From: Alphaproteobacteria bacterium
GTDB lineage: Bacteria > Pseudomonadota > Alphaproteobacteria > Sphingomonadales > Rhodothalassiaceae
Assembly: GCA_003694205.1 (NCBI GenBank)
Contig: RFKS01000128.1
Location: 1-11,920, forward strand
Length of the DNA stretch: 11,920 nt
Direction: 5' to 3'
The notes under the pieces are model-generated. The model made no database searches. It was not told the origin of the DNA and saw nothing but the letters and a program-made list of their open reading frames with translations. The translations under genes were made by a program, and so were the position numbers. Positions 1,871 to 11,169 of the stretch are shown here, piece by piece (the stretch's first letter is position 1; every line of letters begins with the position of its first letter).

Positions 1871-2896
1871 ATGTCCAATCGACCCGTCACCCTGCGCGAT
1901 ATCGCGAAAAAGGTTGGCGTTCACACGTCGACCGTGTCGCGTGTGCTCAATCCCGACGCCGGTGCCAAGGTCTCGCGCGAGGTGGCGCTCAAGGTGACGC
2001 GCGCGGCCGAGGAGCTCGGCTACAGCCTCAATCCCTTCGCCCGCAGCCTCAAGACCAATCAGTCCTTCACCATCGGCGTGCTCATTCCCGATCTCACGGA
2101 CCCGCTCTTCCCGCCGATCATGCGCGGCATCGAGGACACCCTGAGCGAGGCCGGCTACACCGCCATTCTCGCCAATTCGGACAATGACCCGGACCATGAG
2201 CGCAAGGGTCTCGAAACCATGCGGGCGCGCAAGGTCGACGGGCTCATCCTCGCCACTGCCCAGCGCAAGGACCGTCTGGTCGCCCGCTGCGTAGCCGACC
2301 GCATCCCGCTGGTGCTGGTCAATCGGGAGGTCGAGGATCACTCGGTGCCGGCGGTGGTCAATGACGATATCGGCGGCATGCGCATGGTGACCGAGCACGT
2401 CATCTCGCTCGGTCATCGCCGCATCGGCCACATTTCGGGGCCACAGACGCTGTCCACCGGCATGAACCGGCTCAACGGCTATCTCGCGGCGATGCGGGCC
2501 CACGGCCTGCCGGAGCGGCATGCTGACATGGTCGAGGCAGCGCCCCTCACCGACGCCGCGGCACAGGCAGCGGCCGAGGCCCTGCTTGCCTCGGATCCCG
2601 ATCTCACGGCGATCGTGACCGCCAATGACATGCTCGCCCTCGGCGCCTATGACGCGCTCGAGGCACGCGGCCTGAGCTGCCCGGATGACGTGTCGGTAAC
2701 CGGTTTCAATGACATTCCCTTCGCCGACAAGTTCAAGCCGCCGATCACCACGGTGCGCATCCAGAAATTCGAGATGGGCGCGGAGGCGGCGCGCCTCGTC
2801 CTGCGCATGATCAAGGGGGAGAATGTCGGGGGGTTGTCGATGCTGCTGCGCCCGACCCTGGTCGTGCGCGGCTCGACCGCGCCGCCGCGGCGCTGA
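1871..2896 (+). CDS. LacI/GalR-family transcriptional regulator
   Basis: Cytoplasmic DNA-binding regulator of 341 residues, the usual family length. The N-terminal helix-turn-helix is TLRDIAKKVGVHTSTVSRVL (7-26), followed by the hinge helix region NPFARSLKTNQS (54-65). The rest is a periplasmic-binding-protein-like effector domain starting TIGVLIPDLTDPLF (67-80), with the family segments VNREV (150-154), GHRRIGHISG (181-190), ANDMLALGAYDAL (251-263) and VSVTGFNDIPFA (274-285). The start is the ATG in front of SNRPVTL: GGAG at 1856-1859 lies 11 bp upstream, a somewhat long spacing. The longer frame from 1775 would cover the operator and adds nothing family-like. It is divergent from the TRAP/dehydrogenase operon, so it probably represses that operon until the substrate or a metabolite binds. 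The deiodinase-like gene follows 28 bp downstream. Confidence 0.93.
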   Translation: MSNRPVTLRDIAKKVGVHTSTVSRVLNPDAGAKVSREVALKVTRAAEELGYSLNPFARSLKTNQSFTIGVLIPDLTDPLFPPIMRGIEDTLSEAGYTAILANSDNDPDHERKGLETMRARKVDGLILATAQRKDRLVARCVADRIPLVLVNREVEDHSVPAVVNDDIGGMRMVTEHVISLGHRRIGHISGPQTLSTGMNRLNGYLAAMRAHGLPERHADMVEAAPLTDAAAQAAAEALLASDPDLTAIVTANDMLALGAYDALEARGLSCPDDVSVTGFNDIPFADKFKPPITTVRIQKFEMGAEAARLVLRMIKGENVGGLSMLLRPTLVVRGSTAPPRR

Positions 2897-2910
2897 TCAC
2901 CAAGAACAAG

Positions 2911-2916
2911 AAGGAG
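2911..2916 (+). promoter_or_regulatory. Ribosome binding site of the deiodinase-like gene
   Basis: AAGGAG lies 8 bp before the ATG at 2925. It decides this start over the longer reading frame beginning at 2823, which would overlap the LacI-type gene by about 70 bp and gives a Cys/Arg-rich N-terminus unlike the family. Confidence 0.85.
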
Positions 2917-2924
2917 AACCCGGA

Positions 2925-3683
2925 ATGGTCAAGGAGGGCACGACGCTCGATTATCTCAATCCGCGTTTCAAGGTGGGTCTTTACGACTGGGATCTCTTCG
3001 TCGGTCCCGGCGCCGGCGAACCGGCGATAGATTTCACCGCGCTCGATCTCGAGGGCAATGAGGTGAAGCTTTCCGATTTCCGCGGGCGTTGGGTGGTGCT
3101 CGAGACCGGCTCGGCGACCTGCTCGCAGTACAGCAAGAATATCGAGCGGGTCGGCGATCTGCGCGCCGAGTTCCCCGACGTCGAGTTCCTCGTCGTCTAT
3201 GTCCGTGAGGCGCATCCCGGCGAACGCCTGCCCCAGCACCGCAGTTTCGAGGAAAAGAAGCGGGCGGCGGCGCTCTTGCCGAAGAAGTACAAGGAGCACC
3301 GGCGTATTCTCATCGACAGCCTCGATGGGCAGATGCACCGCGCCTACGGCGCCATGCCGAATGTGGTCTATGTCATCAATCCGGACGGCATCGTGCACTA
3401 TCGCTGCGACTGGATGCATATCGAGGGCCTGCGGGCCGCGCTCCGCGACCGGGAGCATGTGCACACCGAGGAACACGCTGAACTGAAAAAGATCAGTGCC
3501 CAGCGCAGCGTATGGACCGCTATCCGCACCATGTGGACGGGCGGCATCATCGCGCTGTGGGACTTCGTCGTGCAGACGCCCGCCCTCTACAGGAAGCACA
3601 AGCTCATCGACGCCTATTACCGCACCCACGGCCGCTTTCGGCGGCGGCCCGACGAGCCGGACCCGGAGGCGCGATCCTCCTGA
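2925..3683 (+). CDS. Iodothyronine-deiodinase-like redoxin (thioredoxin fold), Cys in place of Sec
   Basis: Protein of 252 residues without a signal peptide. Residues about 30-175 form a thioredoxin/redoxin fold. The active-site segment is VVLETGSATCSQYS (57-70), with Cys66 where animal deiodinases have selenocysteine in the GSxTU motif. It is followed by FLVVYVREAHPGE (88-100), equivalent to the deiodinase IYIEEAH segment with conserved Glu-Ala-His, and by a likely cis-Pro in YGAMPNVVYVINPDG (141-155). The animal motif DGW after EAH is not present. A C-terminal tail (about 185-252, WTAIRTMWTGGIIALWDF then a basic end) is outside the fold. Bacterial members are redoxin-like proteins of mostly unknown substrate, so reductive dehalogenation or peroxide/thiol chemistry are both open. 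It is probably cotranscribed with the LacI-type gene and ends at a terminator. Confidence 0.8.
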   Translation: MVKEGTTLDYLNPRFKVGLYDWDLFVGPGAGEPAIDFTALDLEGNEVKLSDFRGRWVVLETGSATCSQYSKNIERVGDLRAEFPDVEFLVVYVREAHPGERLPQHRSFEEKKRAAALLPKKYKEHRRILIDSLDGQMHRAYGAMPNVVYVINPDGIVHYRCDWMHIEGLRAALRDREHVHTEEHAELKKISAQRSVWTAIRTMWTGGIIALWDFVVQTPALYRKHKLIDAYYRTHGRFRRRPDEPDPEARSS

Positions 3684-3768: not shown

Positions 3769-4953
3769 CTAGTTGAGCACGCAGATCGGATCGGGATTGC
3801 CGTCCGGATCGCCCGACACGAGACCGCCATTATAGGCGACGCCACCGGTGAGCAGCATGATGCCGGCCGCGTGCGGCGCCGCCATCGAAGTGCCCGAGAG
3901 CGTCGCCGTGCCGCCGTTCTTGTAGAGCGAAAAGATGCTCACCCCGGGATCGGCGCAGTCCACCGGCGGATTGCCGAAATTGGAGAAGCTTGCGAAGCGA
4001 TCCTGCGAATCCATCGCCGAGATGGTGTAGATGTTGCTGCCGCCCGCGCGTGCTGGCGACACATTCGCCGCATGCTGCGACTCATTGCCCGCGGCAAGGG
4101 TGAAAAAGATGCCCTGCGCGGCCGCATTCTTCACCGCATTGTCGAGCGTGGTGTTCGCCGGCCCGCCGAGGCTCATGTTCGCCACCTCGCCGGGAAGGCC
4201 CACCTGCGCCACATAATCGACGCCGGCAATGATGTCGGAGAAGGTGCCCGAGCCACTGGCATTGAGCACCCGCACGGCAACCACCGTCGCGCCGGCGGCA
4301 ACGCCGAGCGAGCCGATGGAGTTGTTCTTGGCGGCGATGATGCCGGCGACATGCGTGCCGTGACCGTTCTGATCGTCAGGCGATGAGAGGCCGGTAACGA
4401 AACTGCGGCTCAGAGAGGTCGCGACATTGAGATCGGGATGGTCGAGATCGATTCCGGTGTCGATGACGAAGGCATATTTGCCGAGATTGGTGCCGTCTCG
4501 CGGACCATTGACGCGCGACACGCCCCAGGACGCGGTCTGCGCCTGCGCCGTGACGCCGCCGAGCTTCTCGACGCGGTCGGAAATGAAGGCGACACCGTCG
4601 GGCTCATAGTAGGAAATGCGCGGATCCTTCGCGAGACGGGCCGCGGCACGCGGGGCCATCTTGGCGGCAAAGCCGTAGACCGCCTGGGTATAGACATGCT
4701 CCATCCGCCCGCCGGCCGCGCTGACCATGCGTTCGGCCTCCGCCGCGATGGCACTTTGCGGCATGCGATCGTCGAAGACGAAGATATAGCTGCCGCGGAC
4801 GCGCTCGCGCATCTCGGCGGAGATGCCAAACTGGACCCCCGCCGCCGCCTGGCTGCCGTCGCCATCGGCGTCCTGGGCTTGACCGACGAGAGGGGCAGCG
4901 ACAATCGCCGCGACGCCCATCGCAAATAGGGTGAGAATCGAGTCTTTGCGCAT
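3769..4953 (-). CDS. Secreted subtilisin-like serine protease (peptidase S8) with I9 propeptide
   Basis: A 394-residue precursor of an extracytoplasmic protease. Residues 1-25 are a signal peptide (MRKDSILTLFAMGVAAIVAA...). Residues about 54-122 resemble an inhibitor I9 propeptide (GSYIFVFDD...GGRMEHVYTQAVYGFAAKM...YYEPDGVA). The catalytic triad is complete: Asp165 in VIDTGID, His198 in NGHGTHVAG, and Ser356 in SGTSMAAPHAAG; the oxyanion Asn is N290 in LAAGNES. Spacing and sequence are proteinase-K/subtilisin-like. The C-terminus is short (GDPDGNPDPICVLN), with Cys391 and Cys333 as a possible disulfide. RBS AAAGGAAG precedes the ATG by about 7 bp. It lies on the same strand as the polysaccharide operon upstream but is separated by about 270 bp of AT-rich DNA, so it is probably a separate transcription unit. 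Confidence 0.93.
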   Translation of the reverse strand: MRKDSILTLFAMGVAAIVAAPLVGQAQDADGDGSQAAAGVQFGISAEMRERVRGSYIFVFDDRMPQSAIAAEAERMVSAAGGRMEHVYTQAVYGFAAKMAPRAAARLAKDPRISYYEPDGVAFISDRVEKLGGVTAQAQTASWGVSRVNGPRDGTNLGKYAFVIDTGIDLDHPDLNVATSLSRSFVTGLSSPDDQNGHGTHVAGIIAAKNNSIGSLGVAAGATVVAVRVLNASGSGTFSDIIAGVDYVAQVGLPGEVANMSLGGPANTTLDNAVKNAAAQGIFFTLAAGNESQHAANVSPARAGGSNIYTISAMDSQDRFASFSNFGNPPVDCADPGVSIFSLYKNGGTATLSGTSMAAPHAAGIMLLTGGVAYNGGLVSGDPDGNPDPICVLN

Positions 4954-5222: not shown

Positions 5223-5223
5223 C
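5205..5223 (-). terminator. Hairpin at the end of the HlyD gene, no T-run
   Basis: GCCGCTC (5205-5211) pairs perfectly with GAGCGGC (5217-5223) around a 5-base loop. The hairpin begins at the last base of the HlyD stop codon and is the only strong stem at the 3' end of the three-gene operon. No T-run follows on the minus strand, so it is at best a terminator without a U-tail or a 3'-end stabiliser. Confidence 0.35.
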
Positions 5224-6290
5224 TAAAGGTTGCTGGCGAAGGCCGCCTTGAAGTGGGAGAGCATGGTGCGGGCCGCGGCCGCAAGGCGAGCCCCGAAGGA
5301 TCCCGCCGCCCGCACCTCCACCTTGGTGAAGGTGGGCGGAATGATGGTGTTCTCGGCAAAGTCAATGCGCACGATTTGCGAGCGCTCGGCCGGCCGGAAG
5401 CTTTTCTGGAATTCAACCGGCAGCGGTGCCGCCACCGGGAAGAGCTGTGTCACCCGACCGCGCACATCCTCGACGCCGTATTCGAGAACCACCTCGTCAC
5501 CGACCTTGAGGCGATGCAGGGTGCCGGGCTGCAGGAAGGCAAGCACATAGGGCCGGCCGTAGAGAATCTCCATCATGGTCGAGCCGCCGGCGACAACGCT
5601 GCCTGTCGCCACATGCAGATTGTTGACCACGCCATCGACCGGAGCGCGCACGACGCCTTCTCCGAAAGACTCGAGAATCTGCTCAAGGGCATCCTGCTGC
5701 TTGGCCATGATGTCATCGAGGCCGGCAAGCTGGGCATCGACGCCCGCAAGCTCGGACTTGATGCGTTCGCTTTCGAGCACCGCATCATATTCGTCGACCA
5801 GGAACTGGCGCTGCTCGATCGAGGTGGCGACGCCGCGGCGAAGCCCGTCCTCGTGGAGCGCGCGCAGTCGCGTCAGGTCATGCGCCCGCTTGTCGGCAAT
5901 GGGAACAAGCCCCCGGAGCAGGTCGCGCCGCGCGAGAAGCTCGTTCCGCCGCATGCGGGCGTTGGCGATGTCGCGCGACAGGCTGGCAACGCTTTCGGTG
6001 ATTTCGGTCGAGCGCAGCCGGGCAAGCAGGTCGCCCGCCTTCACGATCTCGCCCTCGACCACCGGAACATCGGTCACCGAGGCCACGAAATCGACCGCGA
6101 TCTCCTTGCGCTCCTGGTTCACGAGGCCCTCGGCGCGGAGAAAAATGAGGCTGCCGAACATGTAATTCGCAAGCCACAGGAACAGGCTCGAGATGACCAG
6201 GATATAGGCCCACTGGCCGAAATAGCGCCGACGCGCCCGGACATCGTTGGTCATGCGGTCGAGCCGCCGGGATTTGCGCAGCCGCTTCAT
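5223..6290 (-). CDS. HlyD-family membrane-fusion (periplasmic adaptor) protein
   Basis: 355 residues, anchored in the inner membrane by one segment (about 24-44, GQWAYILVISSLFLWLANY) after a basic cytoplasmic tail. The body has the HlyD order: first half of a lipoyl/beta-barrel motif (about 55-95), a long coiled-coil hairpin (about 98-205), then the returning lipoyl half VVRAPVDGVVNNLHVATGS (213-231) and a beta-barrel domain. Such adaptors bridge inner-membrane exporters or synthases to the outer membrane; Alg44 has a comparable part in alginate synthesis. No PilZ domain is visible. The start ATG (6290-6288) shares one base with the stop of the glycosyltransferase gene (TGATG), so the two are translationally coupled. 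The context points to polysaccharide export rather than protein or drug export. No outer-membrane porin is present in the window. Confidence 0.88.
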   Translation of the reverse strand: MKRLRKSRRLDRMTNDVRARRRYFGQWAYILVISSLFLWLANYMFGSLIFLRAEGLVNQERKEIAVDFVASVTDVPVVEGEIVKAGDLLARLRSTEITESVASLSRDIANARMRRNELLARRDLLRGLVPIADKRAHDLTRLRALHEDGLRRGVATSIEQRQFLVDEYDAVLESERIKSELAGVDAQLAGLDDIMAKQQDALEQILESFGEGVVRAPVDGVVNNLHVATGSVVAGGSTMMEILYGRPYVLAFLQPGTLHRLKVGDEVVLEYGVEDVRGRVTQLFPVAAPLPVEFQKSFRPAERSQIVRIDFAENTIIPPTFTKVEVRAAGSFGARLAAAARTMLSHFKAAFASNL

Positions 6291-7573
6291 CAGAATCTCG
6301 TCGCCTGGTTGAGCACCCGCTGGGGCACATAGCTGTCGCGGTAGGAGGAGCGGAACATCATGTCGTCGACAAGGGCGACGAAACGGATGGCCGGCATGAC
6401 ATAACCGCGGAAAATGCTGGCGCCGACGATATAGGGCCACAGCCGTCCCGGATTGCGTTCGGGATAAAGTATGCAGACCATCATGTACTCGACGATGTCC
6501 TCGACGAGATAGAAGCTCGTCACCATGGCAAGAAGGATCGGTGCCAGCTCGCCATAGCCGATGAAGATCCAGGCGAGATAGGTCAGCACGGCGAAGGTGA
6601 GCACCACCTCAAAGATCAGGATGTTGAGAATCTCGAGCGCATTGGCGAGCGAAAAGCGGCGCGAGAACGGGTTGAGATTGTTGCCGAACTTGCGCAGGCG
6701 CAGGCGCAGGATGTCGCGGTCCCAACGCAGGCGCTGGCGCACGAAGCCGTCGAGATTGACCGGCGCGTCGGTCAGCGCCCAGGAGCGATGCGCAAAGCGC
6801 ACCTCCCATCCCGCGCGCCGCAGCTTGTCGGTGACGTCGGCATCCTCTCCCGGCCCGACGCTCATATCGCCGACCTGGGTCAGCGCACTCTTGCGAAAGG
6901 CGCCGTAGCCGCCGGAGACGATCGGCAGGATGTTGGCCATCGAGGTAAAGCGCCGGCCGAGGGCGATGCTCTCGAGATATTCGATCGCCTGCAGGCGGGT
7001 GAGCAGGCTTTCATCGACGTTGCGGACGCCGATATTGCCCGCCACACCACCGACCTTGGGGTCGGCGAAGGGGCGGATCAGCATCTCGATCGCGTCGCGG
7101 TCGAGCGACGTGTCGATATCCATGTTCACGATCACCGGGTGATCGCAAAAGCGGATGCCGAGATTGACCGCCGCCGACTTGCCGGCGCGCAGCGGCGTCG
7201 AGAGAGCGACGTCGATGAGCCCTTCCTTGAGCAGCCCCTGCGCCACGCGCTCCATACCGTCGGTCGAGCCGTCCGACACCACGATGATCTGGATGTCCTT
7301 GTGGGTCTGGTCGCGCAACCCGATCACGCTCTGGCGCAGGACGCGCGCCTCATTATGCCCGGCGAGCACGATACTGACGGGACCCTTGTAGCCCGGACGG
7401 TTGAAGTCGCGGCTGAAGCGCCGGGCAAAGGCGGAAAAGATCGCCGTCGCCGTGATGGGCACGATATCGAGCACGTAGCGCGGCAGGTCAAAGAGCGCCC
7501 AGAACCAGAAGACGGTGAGAAATCCGGTCAGGTCGAGCTGTGCCAGAAAGTCGAGACCCTGTTCGAAGATCAT
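6290..7573 (-). CDS. Family 2 processive glycosyltransferase (cellulose/alginate/chitin synthase-like), membrane-bound
   Basis: 427 residues. A membrane segment near the N-terminus (about 16-48) is followed by a GT2 catalytic domain (about 65-290) and several membrane segments (about 310-400). All GT2 processive motifs are visible: Asp101 in VVSDGSTD, the metal-binding DxD in NMDIDTS (Asp152, Asp154), GPGED (240-244, catalytic base position) and QRLRW (280-284), the processivity signature of synthases that extrude their polymer. It probably polymerises a nucleotide-sugar at the inner membrane and passes the chain to the coupled HlyD adaptor. No PilZ domain is present, so any c-di-GMP input would have to come from another protein. 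The ATG overlaps the upstream stop as ATGA. Polymer identity cannot be read from sequence. A GCGCAG triplet repeat (6692-6709) encodes Leu-Arg repeats after the QRLRW motif. Confidence 0.92.
   Translation of the reverse strand: MIFEQGLDFLAQLDLTGFLTVFWFWALFDLPRYVLDIVPITATAIFSAFARRFSRDFNRPGYKGPVSIVLAGHNEARVLRQSVIGLRDQTHKDIQIIVVSDGSTDGMERVAQGLLKEGLIDVALSTPLRAGKSAAVNLGIRFCDHPVIVNMDIDTSLDRDAIEMLIRPFADPKVGGVAGNIGVRNVDESLLTRLQAIEYLESIALGRRFTSMANILPIVSGGYGAFRKSALTQVGDMSVGPGEDADVTDKLRRAGWEVRFAHRSWALTDAPVNLDGFVRQRLRWDRDILRLRLRKFGNNLNPFSRRFSLANALEILNILIFEVVLTFAVLTYLAWIFIGYGELAPILLAMVTSFYLVEDIVEYMMVCILYPERNPGRLWPYIVGASIFRGYVMPAIRFVALVDDMMFRSSYRDSYVPQRVLNQATRF
6692..6709. repeat. GCGCAG tandem repeat, three copies, inside the glycosyltransferase gene
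   Basis: Three perfect 6-bp copies at 6692-6697, 6698-6703 and 6704-6709 encode LRLRLR on the minus strand just after the QRLRW motif. The unit keeps frame, so copy changes would alter length by two residues. Confidence 0.7.
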
Positions 7574-8916
7574 GGCACCTGCTCCATGAACCGCTCCCAG
7601 TCGTCGGCCTCGAAAATGTCGATCCGGAGATCGACGGGCTCGGACAGGGTTTCGTCGGCCCGCTGCCGCATGCGCTCGAGCGCCCGCTCGACGCCGGCAC
7701 GTGGCGTCTCGGCGAAGAGAACCAGCACCAAGCGTCCCGAGAGCGCTACCGCGTCCGAGGTGCGGAGCGTTTGCGAGATGATTTCGGCCAGCAGGGTGAA
7801 AAGTTGATTGAGCCGGCGCCCGCCGAGCCTTTGAGCGAGTTCGTCATAATTGGCGACCTCGAGCACACCGCCGCACAGTGGCCGTTCGTATCGACGTGCA
7901 ATATCGGACTGATAGTCGCAGAGCAGGCGAAAATCGCGCGGCGAATAGGTTCCCATGATGCGCGCAATGGCAGCACCGAGGCTGCGCGCCGGCAGCGCCC
8001 CCGCCTTCAATGCGGCGACGCCTTTCGACGTCAGGGCATAATGATGCCAGGTCCGCTTGTCGGCACGCTCGGCCTCGGTGCGCTTGCCGCAATCCATGCA
8101 GACGAAGCCGACCGCCGGTTCATCATTGACGTGGCCGCAGTCGCCGCAATGAAAAATCTCGGCAGGGCGGTCGTAGTCCACGCCGTAGTGCCGCAGCGTG
8201 TCGCCGCATTTGGGACAGAGCAGCCCACCGTCCGGGCGCTCGAATTCCTCGGCTGGCGCCTGATGCGCGCAGCGGTAATGATGGACGAGGCTTGTCTGAC
8301 GAAGATTGCTGCTGCCGCACTTGATGCATTCCTCGCGCACATTGAGCCGCGACGAGCCGCAGTGCCCGCACAGGTGCAAGGTATCGAAGGGGCGCCGCCG
8401 CAGAAGGTCACCGGCCGCAAGATCCTCGAGACTCTCGCGGCTCACCGGAATGCCTTCAAGAAGCGGATAACGGACCGCCTCGGGAACGAGTGGGCACCAG
8501 TCGGCAAGGAGTTCGGACTCGCGCGAGAAGGCCATCGCCATCGCCTCGAGCGCCGGCCGGTCAGATGGCGCGGCAGGCGGTGGCAATTCCGAAAGACGCC
8601 CGAGGATGTCGATCGCCTTGGCTGTGAACTCCGTCAGGCCCACCTCGCTCAGGGCCGGACCCGCATAATCCGCCCGCTTGAATTGCGCGCCCGAGAAATT
8701 GCCGATCGGCAGCAAGGCCTTGTCATGCTTCGCAAGGCGCGCCATCAGGCCGTCCGTCGCCGCCCCCTCAAGCAGAATGACGGCATCAGCCGGGGCTGCG
8801 GGGTCGGTGCTGCACTGCGCCCGCGGCAGGGCCTCCGGCCAGGGCGAGGTCGTCCCCTCCACAAGAAACCGCAAGCCCTTCTGGCCCTCTTGTCCTCTTG
8901 TCTGACCTTCTGTCAT
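7570..8916 (-). CDS. TackOD1-type multi-zinc-ribbon protein with degenerate GGDEF-like C-terminal domain
   Basis: 448 residues, no signal peptide or membrane segment, so cytoplasmic. Residues about 1-170 form an N-terminal alpha/beta region of unclear family, perhaps a degenerate receiver (DAVILLEGA..., ALLPIGNFSG). Residues about 178-280 are Cys-rich, with CGHC (183-186), CIKC (197-200), a lone C216 after HHY, CPKC (234-237), CGDC (257-260) followed by GHVNDEP, and CMDC (273-276). This matches the thaumarchaeal output domain 1 (TackOD1) as I know it. Residues about 325-435 look like a nucleotide-cyclase fold, with SGRLVLVLF where GGDEF would stand, so it is probably catalytically dead. It is the first gene of the operon with the glycosyltransferase (ATGA overlap) and is a likely regulator of polymer synthesis. 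The first ATG in the frame is 8916; GTG starts at 8919 and 9021 are alternatives. Confidence 0.8.
   Translation of the reverse strand: MTEGQTRGQEGQKGLRFLVEGTTSPWPEALPRAQCSTDPAAPADAVILLEGAATDGLMARLAKHDKALLPIGNFSGAQFKRADYAGPALSEVGLTEFTAKAIDILGRLSELPPPAAPSDRPALEAMAMAFSRESELLADWCPLVPEAVRYPLLEGIPVSRESLEDLAAGDLLRRRPFDTLHLCGHCGSSRLNVREECIKCGSSNLRQTSLVHHYRCAHQAPAEEFERPDGGLLCPKCGDTLRHYGVDYDRPAEIFHCGDCGHVNDEPAVGFVCMDCGKRTEAERADKRTWHHYALTSKGVAALKAGALPARSLGAAIARIMGTYSPRDFRLLCDYQSDIARRYERPLCGGVLEVANYDELAQRLGGRRLNQLFTLLAEIISQTLRTSDAVALSGRLVLVLFAETPRAGVERALERMRQRADETLSEPVDLRIDIFEADDWERFMEQVP
8887..8902. repeat. 8-bp perfect tandem duplication near the start of the TackOD1 gene
   Basis: CTCTTGTC occurs twice in direct succession (8887-8894, 8895-8902), covering about codons 5-10 of the chosen reading frame. 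Loss or gain of one 8-bp unit would shift the frame. Only two copies are present. Confidence 0.65.
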
Positions 8917-9349: not shown

Positions 9350-9655
9350 ATGATGCGCTTCACGAAGATGGCAGGTCTTGCGGTCGTTGTGGCCGGGGTG
9401 GCGGCGGCTGGTGGCTGCGCGCAGCAGCTCGCTGATGATGACCGCCAGATCCTGATCGACGCCCGCGACGCGGCGCAGCAGGCGGCCGACGCCGCACGGC
9501 GCAGTGCCGACGCAGCCGAGCGCGCCGCGCGGTCGGCCGGTCAGGCGGTGAGCGCCGCACAGGACGCGGCGAGGACGGCGGAGTCCGCGGCCGAAAAGGC
9601 GCAGCGGATCGCCAACGAGCTGGAAGGCAAGTTCAACCGCTCGATGCGGAAGTAA
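9350..9655 (+). CDS. Small alanine-zipper lipoprotein, Lpp/OprI-like, ending in Arg-Lys
   Basis: 101 residues. A signal sequence (1-22) ends at a lipobox-like AAAGGC with Cys23 as the predicted lipidated residue. Position -3 is Ala rather than Leu, as I recall for OprI (ATGC). The mature part (79 residues) is almost entirely an Ala-rich helix with heptad spacing (about 34-95: DARDAAQQAADAARR... and so on), predicted to form an alanine-zipper coiled coil. The protein ends NRSMRK. Braun's Lpp (YRK) and OprI (SRK) also end in Arg-Lys, and in Lpp the terminal Lys is linked to peptidoglycan by L,D-transpeptidases. The convergent neighbour is such an enzyme, and the two genes overlap by 23 bp at their 3' ends. 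Likely role: outer-membrane to murein tether. Family assignment is by architecture, not by close sequence identity. Confidence 0.8.
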   Translation: MMRFTKMAGLAVVVAGVAAAGGCAQQLADDDRQILIDARDAAQQAADAARRSADAAERAARSAGQAVSAAQDAARTAESAAEKAQRIANELEGKFNRSMRK

Positions 9656-10664
9656 GCGAAGCTCCTGGACGTCGCCGGGTTACCGGCGGCGTGATTGGCT
9701 CGGGCACACCGCGGCGTTCGCGCGCAATCCGCGCCACCTCGGACCAGTCGATACGGCTGGCGAGATCACCAGCGCGGGCCATCAGCATGTCCTCGACCCC
9801 GATGAAGGGGTCGTCGGGTGGCGTTTGTCCCATATCGAGCGCCGCAACCTGGTCGCGCGAGGGCGCAATCTCGAGATAGAGACGGCCATCCTCGCCCTGC
9901 GCGAGCTTGGCGGGGGCATCGATGATGCGCACGATCGCCCCCCGCGCCACATGATCATAAAGCCAGGCGATGTCGCCCGGCGACAGGCGGATGCAGCCGC
10001 GGCTCACCTCGCGGCCGATGCTGTCGGGCCGGTTGGTTCCATGCAGCAGGTACTCCGTATGCCCGAGCCGCAGGGCATGGCGCCCGAGCGGATTGTCCGG
10101 CCCCGGCGGCACGACCCGCGGCAGCGCCGGCGATTCCGCCCGGTGGGCCGCGGTTGGGTACCAGGCGGGATTGGCCTTCTTCTCACCGATCGGAATTTCG
10201 CCGAGCGGCGTCTCGTAGCCGTCACGGCCGAGCGAGATCGGCGCCGACCAAATGGGACCGTCGGCGGGATAGGCGTAAAGGCGCAATTCGGCGCGATTGA
10301 CGATGATCGCCGCGCCATCGGCGGGCGGCGCGATGTGCATCGTCGGCAGCACGAGCCGGGCACCGGGCTGCGGCACCCAGACATCGACACCCGGATTGGC
10401 GGCACGCAGCTCGACGAAGCCGATGTCATAGCGCATGGCAAGCCGGATGAGCGTGTCCTCGCGGCGAATGATGACGCTGCGGGGCTCGCCGATCAGACGG
10501 CCGACGAGGATGTCGCGGGAATGGTCCTGCGCGCTGACCTCGGCCGGCACGAGCAGGATCGACGCAATGGCCGCGAGAACCAGGAGCGCAAGCGCCCGCC
10601 CGCGCCGCGCCGCGTCGCGCAGCGCCGGGTGGAGCCCCGGCCGGATGCGCACGTCTGTGCTCAT
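9633..10664 (-). CDS. L,D-transpeptidase, ErfK/YbiS type (LysM plus YkuD)
   Basis: 343 residues, exported. An N-terminal basic stretch and hydrophobic segment (about 24-45, LALLVLAAIASILLVPAEVSAQ) serve as signal peptide or anchor. A LysM-like peptidoglycan-binding motif follows (about 60-108, REDTLIRLAMRYDIGFVELRAANPG in part). The YkuD catalytic domain spans about 117-250: HGTN (208-211) and SRGCIR (221-226) with nucleophile Cys224. AANPGVD and VVPPGPDNPLG match the E. coli ErfK/YbiS/YcfS/YnhG group, whose members attach Lpp to diaminopimelate or make 3-3 cross-links. The C-terminal 90 residues are Pro/Arg-rich and not recognised. The ATG at 10664 is preferred over a GTG at 10715; its RBS is weak (CAGG), and a TATAAG just upstream hints at a very short leader. 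It lies 85 bp downstream of the XRE gene on the same strand. Confidence 0.9.
   Translation of the reverse strand: MSTDVRIRPGLHPALRDAARRGRALALLVLAAIASILLVPAEVSAQDHSRDILVGRLIGEPRSVIIRREDTLIRLAMRYDIGFVELRAANPGVDVWVPQPGARLVLPTMHIAPPADGAAIIVNRAELRLYAYPADGPIWSAPISLGRDGYETPLGEIPIGEKKANPAWYPTAAHRAESPALPRVVPPGPDNPLGRHALRLGHTEYLLHGTNRPDSIGREVSRGCIRLSPGDIAWLYDHVARGAIVRIIDAPAKLAQGEDGRLYLEIAPSRDQVAALDMGQTPPDDPFIGVEDMLMARAGDLASRIDWSEVARIARERRGVPEPITPPVTRRRPGASLTSASSG
9671..9690. other. Strong hairpin between the converging genes, inside the transpeptidase 3' end
   Basis: CGCCGG (9673-9678) pairs with CCGGCG (9683-9688) around a GTTA loop. It is extended by a T-G wobble and a G-C pair. It lies 15 bp after the lipoprotein stop but lacks a T-run, and it is also coding sequence of the transpeptidase. 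It may act as a weak terminator for the lipoprotein mRNA. Confidence 0.35.
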
Positions 10665-10749
10665 GCGCCTGCTTATAGAAGGAGAGCCGCGGCGAGGCCA
10701 GTCCCTCCCCGCCACGGCCCGGCGATGCGCCGACCGCGGAAGCCGTATC

Positions 10750-11169
10750 CTACTCGCCTGCGCCTTTGTCCTGCGTACCCGACAGGCGCCTGATGAGTCC
10801 GAGAATCTGCCCGCGCATCACCTCATCGCGAATCCGGTAGAAATTGCGCACGAGTTCTATGGTCTCGCGTCTCCCTACCTGGCGCATGTCGAACACCTCC
10901 TCGGGATCCGGCGGAATCAGCCGCTCGGCGAGATCCTCGGACATGTCCTCGAAAAAGAAGCCGACGGGAACGTTCAGAACCTTTGAAATCTTGTAAAGGT
11001 TGCTCGAGCCGATCCGGTTCAGGCCGCGCTCGTATTTCTGCACCTGCTGAAATGTCAGGCCGAGTGCGTTGGCCAGTTTTTCCTGGCTGAGGCCGAGCAG
11101 GGTCCGCCGCAAGCGCACGCGCGAACCCACATGGGCATCAATGGGATTGGGACCTCTGACCACCATCAT
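10750..11169 (-). CDS. XRE/Cro-family helix-turn-helix transcriptional regulator
   Basis: 139 residues. The DNA-binding domain covers about 12-72: VGSRVRLRRTLLGLSQEKLANALG (14-37, in part) with recognition helix around TFQQVQKYERGLNRI (39-53), then LYKISKVLNVPVGFFFEDM. The C-terminal half (about 80-139) is helical and charged, with RETIELVRNFYRI and no enzymatic motif. The combination of an HTH with PNPIDxHVG at the N-terminus is a widespread alphaproteobacterial chromosomal regulator rather than a phage repressor. The start is ambiguous: AGGAG ends directly at the first ATG (11169), is 3 bp from a second ATG (11166) and 6 bp from a GTG (11163); the GTG has the best spacing. Target genes are unknown; the transpeptidase gene 85 bp downstream could share its transcript. 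Confidence 0.92.
   Translation of the reverse strand: MMVVRGPNPIDAHVGSRVRLRRTLLGLSQEKLANALGLTFQQVQKYERGLNRIGSSNLYKISKVLNVPVGFFFEDMSEDLAERLIPPDPEEVFDMRQVGRRETIELVRNFYRIRDEVMRGQILGLIRRLSGTQDKGAGE

Follow-up and report, generated by a model that had tools for sequence, protein, structure and literature searches.

The locus

The window analysed here is a stretch of 11,920 nucleotides, contig C215 (RFKS01000128.1) of an alphaproteobacterial genome of the Rhodothalassiaceae, whose assembly (GCA_003694205.1; 1.82 Mb in 339 contigs) is 64.9% complete. Its minus strand carries three genes, recognised from open reading frames (ORFs) and profile matches, that form the subject of this work. The first (positions 7570-8916, starting from an ATG at 8916 within a longer frame that opens with GTG) encodes a TackOD1 protein of 448 amino acids, which matches PF18551 with 154.3 bits against a cut-off of 32; the second (6290-7573) a GT2 synthase of 427 amino acids with C-terminal membrane segments; and the third (5223-6290) an HlyD-type adaptor of 355 amino acids, the last two being above the Pfam cut-offs for GT2 and HlyD_3. 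The TackOD1 and GT2 genes overlap by ATGA (7570-7573) and the GT2 and HlyD genes by TGATG (6288-6292), which confirms the three-gene coupling described in an earlier note on this DNA.

We consider it rather probable that this trio is an exopolysaccharide synthase of a GT2-HlyD-TolC type, gated by cyclic di-GMP (c-di-GMP) via the TackOD1 protein, with binding, product and export all predicted. The proposal is built on gene coupling, conservation, domains, motif pattern, predicted folds and the TolC-family genes of related operons. If it is correct, the trio represents a route of synthesis and secretion of surface polysaccharide that is little known.

Conservation of the cassette

The co-occurrence of the three genes in other genomes, which the earlier note had put forward as a check, is what was found. 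TackOD1 lies above its cut-off in nine of 385 alphaproteobacterial genomes, the window included; four of the other eight loci (L017-L020) carry TackOD1-GT2-HlyD, and the remaining four (L021-L024), a separate long-branched TackOD1 group in the tree, are an exception to the trio. TackOD1 is followed by a PIG-L deacetylase in L021, L022 and L023. L021 and L023 also have a more distant GT2 close by on the opposite strand, and an epimerase and an OEP protein are found in the vicinity of the TackOD1 gene of L024. When the same 385 genomes were searched with the GT2, 12 gave a match at E <= 1e-60, and those above 500 bits fell in five genomes, which are the five trio genomes; at most four candidates were scored per genome, so further GT2 could be missed.

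Among 31 loci of named genomes, GT2 follows TackOD1 in 27. The contig stops at TackOD1 in three others (L040, L048 and L055), and L054, with a major facilitator superfamily (MFS) gene downstream of TackOD1, is a true exception. Of the 27 with GT2, 26 have HlyD next, and the contig of L025 stops inside GT2. A phylum-wide sample has TackOD1 above the cut-off in 15 of 398 genomes, the window's included; 15 loci were fetched from it, two of them from one genome, and 14 are new, since L107, with a contig of the same length, is apparently the same Stappia locus as L034. GT2 is present in all 15 and HlyD in 14, the other locus (L102) ending inside an upstream HlyD. HlyD precedes TackOD1 in L098, L102, L103 and L104; its match is weak (24-31 bits) in L098 and L103, both above the HlyD_3 cut-off, and in L104. 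Plasmids gave 17 matching records, of which seven were opened, and the trio is found on all six bacterial plasmids among these seven. Across 51 loci that hold all three members, the closest possible GT2 start lies at most 26 bases from the TackOD1 stop, a distance biased to short values because the nearest possible start is taken.

The trio is found in many Alpha- and Gammaproteobacteria, and its presence in named marine and soil bacteria makes product, receptor and export route open to test. No description of a TackOD1-GT2-HlyD operon was recognised in the titles, abstracts or consulted passages of the open-licence papers that literature searches listed; the PMC numbers cited below likewise refer to such parts of each source.

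Three single loci may be added. The 29-kb Aeromonas caviae plasmid pKAM329_3 bears a TackOD1-GT2-TolC-HlyD operon (L068:5596-11418) and is typed as mobilizable, and therefore the cassette may move between bacteria. In Chelativorans sp. J32 a tandem pair of GT2 genes stands between TackOD1 and HlyD (L031:11140-13802). On the opened archaeal plasmid, from Haladaptatus, a TackOD1-like protein (L070:5881-6843) has no GT2 or HlyD annotated nearby.

The GT2 synthase

The GT2 protein carries D101, a DxD motif (residues 152-154), GED (242-244) and QRLRW (280-284), that is, the full D, DxD, (T/G)ED and QxxRW set of processive synthases that had been noticed in it before. In an alignment (A2) of the window protein with 36 of 120 listed relatives, D101, D154, D244, Q280, R283 and W284 are invariant and QxxRW is kept in 37 of 37. 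With hyaluronan synthases, a profile of the family aligns over residues 125-330 and over 137-383, in both cases beyond the QxxRW site; its match to cellulose synthase spans 215-366, and that to chitin synthase about 140-227. These motifs and profiles, with matches over parts of the catalytic core, do not place the GT2 with the non-processive enzymes, a grouping that would have undone the earlier proposal; they support a processive-type synthase with a long polymer as its predicted product.

It is improbable, in our judgement, that the protein is instead a non-processive or lipid-linked glycosyltransferase and that the cargo of HlyD is of another kind, for example a glycolipid or an oligosaccharide. 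The GT2 does stay under every curated NCBIfam cut-off, and its profile also matches non-processive GT2s; however, the best stretches with chondroitin and dolichol-phosphate-mannose synthases are confined to about 49-169, while those with hyaluronan synthases extend beyond the universally retained QxxRW. The best NCBIfam neighbour is PgaC_IcaA, followed by an XrtG-associated glycosyltransferase (75.7 bits) and NodC (68.5), and in one relative (L045) a GH16 domain is fused to HlyD, which also speaks against a non-processive enzyme. Two specific identities were rejected: the poly-N-acetylglucosamine (PNAG) synthase PgaC/IcaA (TIGR03937, 131.5 bits against a cut-off of 422.3) and UDP-forming cellulose synthase BcsA/CelA (TIGR03030, 26.6 against 699.1).

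The TackOD1 protein as a candidate c-di-GMP receptor

The TackOD1 protein, whose closest named relative belongs to a Rhodothalassiaceae metagenome-assembled genome (85% identity), consists of a small N-terminal alpha/beta domain, a TackOD1 zinc-ribbon core and a degenerate GGDEF domain, and its predicted model has a mean predicted local distance difference test score (pLDDT) of 91.2. The TackOD1 domain spans residues 122-295 in the profile match (positions 8032-8553, minus strand) and includes the zinc-ligand stretch (residues 183-276; 8089-8370), where C183, C186, C197, C200, H212, C216, C234, C237, C257, C273 and C276 are invariant in the alignment columns of 50 sequences and C260 is nearly so, a number of ligands that would leave room for three zinc sites. 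The degenerate GGDEF domain (residues 314-446; 7579-7977) was delimited by structural matches and a profile match to GGDEF chains; a search of a viral structure library returned GGDEF-type and chance matches. According to the alignment with relatives, the domain contains the RxxD motif of an inhibitory site (I-site), R385-T-S-D388 (7753-7764), and R415 (7672-7674), which aligns with an arginine in the helix after the GGDEF hairpin and would thus be the third I-site residue.

The 50 sequences (alignment A1) are the window protein and 49 of 69 TackOD1 hits; those excluded are the 19 with a receiver and the hit to the window protein itself. None of these receiver-less proteins has GG[DE]EF, the active site of diguanylate cyclases. 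RxxD is present in 43 of them (43 also when all 69 hits are counted), and R385, D388 and R415 occur together in 41. The motif pattern, the model and the structural matches agree on a degenerate GGDEF fold with RxxD, as in a PelD-like receptor. RxxD with a third arginine and without GG[DE]EF is the pattern of the c-di-GMP receptors PelD and BcsE, and binding itself is predicted from it.

On the other hand, the protein could act by protein-protein contact or otherwise, with RxxD as an inherited structural remnant and the synthase outside c-di-GMP control. Intact GGDEF domains from two of these genomes carry the motif too, in 19 cases out of 25, so its presence alone says little; several trio members do without it; and TackOD1 has been named as an archaeal output domain of obscure function (PMC5847659). 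We nevertheless hold this explanation to be unlikely, because the c-di-GMP argument concerns the survival of RxxD after the loss of the active site and not its presence as such: D388, R385 and R415 rank first, fourth and sixth in conservation within residues 305-448 although GG[DE]EF is gone. No helix-turn-helix was matched in a profile scan of the protein, and the translational coupling of its gene to GT2 would favour a structural partner of the synthase over a transcription factor.

The earlier note had placed control in this zinc-ribbon/degenerate GGDEF protein, which still appears the most plausible controller; what changes is the sensor, which is likely the retained RxxD I-site of the degenerate GGDEF domain rather than the zinc ribbons, for whose sensing role evidence was found neither for nor against.

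Receiver-bearing proteins and other departures

In a count of 109 TackOD1 proteins, which contains repeats and also takes in L021-L024, RxxD occurs without a receiver in 64 and a receiver without RxxD in 30; 12 proteins show neither, one shows both, and two are cut. After the removal of identical rows, the 105 left divide into 62, 30, 12 and one. Nearly all receiver proteins fall in one clade of a tree made by a quick method, with three independent receiver/I-site pairs on supported branches and five on all branches, and therefore they represent about one origin and not many tests. The exchange of receiver for I-site was accordingly dropped as independent evidence, being close to a single clade event. 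Among seven receiver-type loci in which some neighbours were scanned, a histidine kinase is present in four (L042, L044, L046 and L053) and was not found among the scanned neighbours of L049, L051 and L054; Hpt and CHASE-domain genes are annotated on a Roseibium plasmid.

Together with the curated-family scores of the GT2, the I-site motifs of intact GGDEF domains and this single-clade exchange, the following weigh against a c-di-GMP-gated polysaccharide synthase. The trio members of L031, L032, L034 and L037 have lost the I-site arginine and have no receiver; L045 and the plasmid loci L071, L073 and L074 have neither I-site nor receiver; seven TackOD1 proteins known only as database entries, apart from any gene context, likewise lack RxxD and receiver; and RxxD occurs in only two of the six opened bacterial plasmid loci. 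Most scanned cassette neighbours, moreover, are not polysaccharide genes (for instance GidA, queuosine synthesis, proline dehydrogenase, a transposase), and the window cassette contains no outer-membrane gene.

The HlyD adaptor and the outer-membrane exit

The absence of PilZ from the adaptor, reported previously, is borne out by a profile scan with no match in any of the trio proteins at E values up to 1. The predicted HlyD model shows the parts of an EmrA-like adaptor, namely an N-terminal anchor, lipoyl halves and a long alpha-helical hairpin (helices 95-151 and 157-212; positions 5655-6008, minus strand) of about 57 residues per helix, and its best structural match is EmrA of EmrAB-TolC. 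The protein begins with a basic tail (residues 1-19; 6234-6290), predicted to be cytoplasmic, which in an alignment (A3) of the window protein with 21 of 26 named loci with HlyD slightly exceeds the other eight of nine HlyD segments in conservation, R18 being invariant in the 22 sequences. No claim is made for a TolC-binding tip motif of the RLS type, because conservation at the tip of the hairpin is low, with a mean of 1.69 where the N-terminal tail has 2.52.

The outer-membrane exit had been left open, and there is now a lead: a TolC-family gene lies inside the operon in three of the 15 phylum-sample loci (L093, L095 and L096, of Pseudomonas type) and on plasmid L068, which suggests the exit route. 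The Pfam OEP scan covered selected ORFs of the cassette neighbourhoods. In L098, L103 and L104 there is a large protein with shared C-terminal columns that is perhaps related to the TolC family; it has no Pfam OEP match, and a weak profile match (15.6 bits in a five-sequence set) was obtained for L098 only, so the likeness was not adopted. The window's own genome (65% complete) has one OEP protein, on another contig.

A machine that does not use TolC, with a BgsB-like HlyD as the sole periplasmic conduit and with TolC genes taken up in some lineages only, strikes us as somewhat doubtful. The lack of an outer-membrane gene in the window cassette is in its favour, as is a phmmer search with two TolC-family queries that found none in the window or L017-L055, an insensitive search that missed the OEP protein beside L024; BgsB itself has been described as HlyD-like and likely involved in channel formation (PMC9495663). 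Against it stand the in-operon TolC-family genes of relatives, the possibly related large protein of three more loci, and the hairpin length and EmrA likeness of the adaptor.

Relation to known systems

To our knowledge, the Pel system has no HlyD and no TackOD1, and BcsE no zinc ribbons. As predicted for the TackOD1 protein, PelD of Pseudomonas aeruginosa is the c-di-GMP receptor of a polysaccharide synthase, with a degenerate GGDEF domain, RxxD and a further arginine, and no PilZ; unlike it, PelD has transmembrane helices and a GAF domain, and the synthase is the GT4 enzyme PelF (PMC8461298). In the TackOD1 protein no GAF match and, at the threshold used, no hydrophobic segment was found. 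BcsE of E. coli cellulose secretion is also a separate cytosolic protein with a degenerate GGDEF domain, which in BcsE binds c-di-GMP by RxxD, but it is a degenerate REC-GGDEF tandem added to a synthase that already has PilZ (PMC7439463).

As for architecture, Alg8 and Alg44 pair a GT2 with a single-pass subunit bearing a periplasmic membrane-fusion domain in one polymerase, whereas Alg44 reads c-di-GMP with PilZ and alginate has an AlgK/AlgE/AlgG/AlgX scaffold (PMC8461298); the trio HlyD has only a short basic tail in place of PilZ, which excludes Alg8/Alg44 membership. The mixed-linkage beta-glucan synthase BgsBA of Rhizobium and Sinorhizobium is likewise a two-gene pair of HlyD and GT2, activated by c-di-GMP without PilZ (PMC5567048, PMC9495663). 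BgsA, however, reads c-di-GMP with its own C-terminal tail and has 664 amino acids against 427; the two GT2 proteins share 23% identity over 290 columns, the best alignment ending at the QxxRW region, the HlyD alignment with BgsB is weak, and no TackOD1 gene is listed beside BgsBA. Membership was ruled out, as the trio GT2 lacks the c-di-GMP-binding tail. The cyanobacterial XcsAB-TolC cellulose model has the same order of synthase, HlyD adaptor and TolC-like channel, with a synthase that bears PilZ (PMC12430437), and a TolC-family gene is in the operon of part of the trio relatives. Archaeal two-component TackOD1 proteins share the Cys-rich domain, and REC-TackOD1 fusions exist, but their context is a different one, for which type IV pilus loci are named (PMC5847659), and the Haladaptatus copy has no annotated GT2 nearby.

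By analogy, the trio would combine control of the PelD kind with the architecture of Alg8-Alg44 and BgsBA and with the XcsAB-TolC route that has been proposed for cyanobacteria. It is not filed as an Alg8/Alg44, BgsBA, PelD, PNAG or cellulose system. Its clusters bear on a question that a 2025 review poses as open in the part cited, whether a synthase-HlyD-TolC polysaccharide route exists in operon-organised clusters (PMC12430437).

The proposed machine

In the c-di-GMP-gated synthase that we favour, the inner-membrane GT2 would polymerise a nucleotide sugar and move the chain across the membrane, and HlyD, anchored by one helix, would lead it through the periplasm along its EmrA-like hairpin to a TolC-type channel, encoded in the operon of some relatives and, in the window's genome, perhaps the one found elsewhere. 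The cytoplasmic TackOD1 protein would be the gate: c-di-GMP would bind at the I-site that its degenerate GGDEF domain has kept, and the signal would pass through the zinc-ribbon part to GT2, to the conserved HlyD tail or to both. The TackOD1 protein would thereby do the work of Alg44's PilZ domain, in the manner of PelD or BcsE. The complex of the three proteins, the direction of gating and the docking on TolC are predictions of this model, as are ligand and product. TackOD1, whose function is called obscure in the part of PMC5847659 that deals with it, gains a consistent setting in bacteria and a role that can be tested.

A more far-reaching version, which we offer tentatively and think possible more than expected, sees in GT2-HlyD-TolC a new secretion class with zinc-ribbon TackOD1 as the common gate, whose inputs would be interchangeable (c-di-GMP at the I-site of the degenerate GGDEF domain or, where a receiver is fused, its phosphorylation), and in which some lineages may trim the chain by a possibly hydrolase-like domain on the outer-membrane factor or by GH16 on HlyD. 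TackOD1 would in that case be an output domain that docks on the polymerase and that bacteria share with archaea. For the domain fused to the outer-membrane factor, GH97 and GH18 were considered and set aside because the hits were weak (E 9.4e-6 for a putative GH97 chain, E 0.49 for concanavalin B).

Neighbouring genes

Hints of the product rest on one or few loci each. The GH16-HlyD fusion (L045:12267-14201; 39.2 bits, cut-off 22) is in a Rhizobiaceae genome. In L035 a nucleotide-sugar dehydrogenase gene overlaps HlyD and is TviB-like by its best score (491.5, below the cut-off of 592); an epimerase and a nucleotide-sugar dehydrogenase come after HlyD in L031; and galE is annotated in L074. 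Adenylate/guanylate cyclase-domain genes lie upstream of two TackOD1 cassettes on the same strand (L105:7638-9374 and L073:1429-4728), and a gene near the cassette of genome G203 (L018:3146-4774) passes the NCBIfam cut-off for anti-phage dCTP deaminase (462.1 against 400 bits).

In the window, the next gene after the trio (3769-4953, minus strand) encodes a subtilisin-like S8 protease with an I9 propeptide. A LacI-family regulator (1865-2893) has a deiodinase/AhpC-TSA thioredoxin-fold protein (2823-3683) downstream of it. The strand of the trio carries, upstream of its three genes, a Cro/C1-type regulator (10750-11169) and a YkuD L,D-transpeptidase that has LysM (9633-10715).
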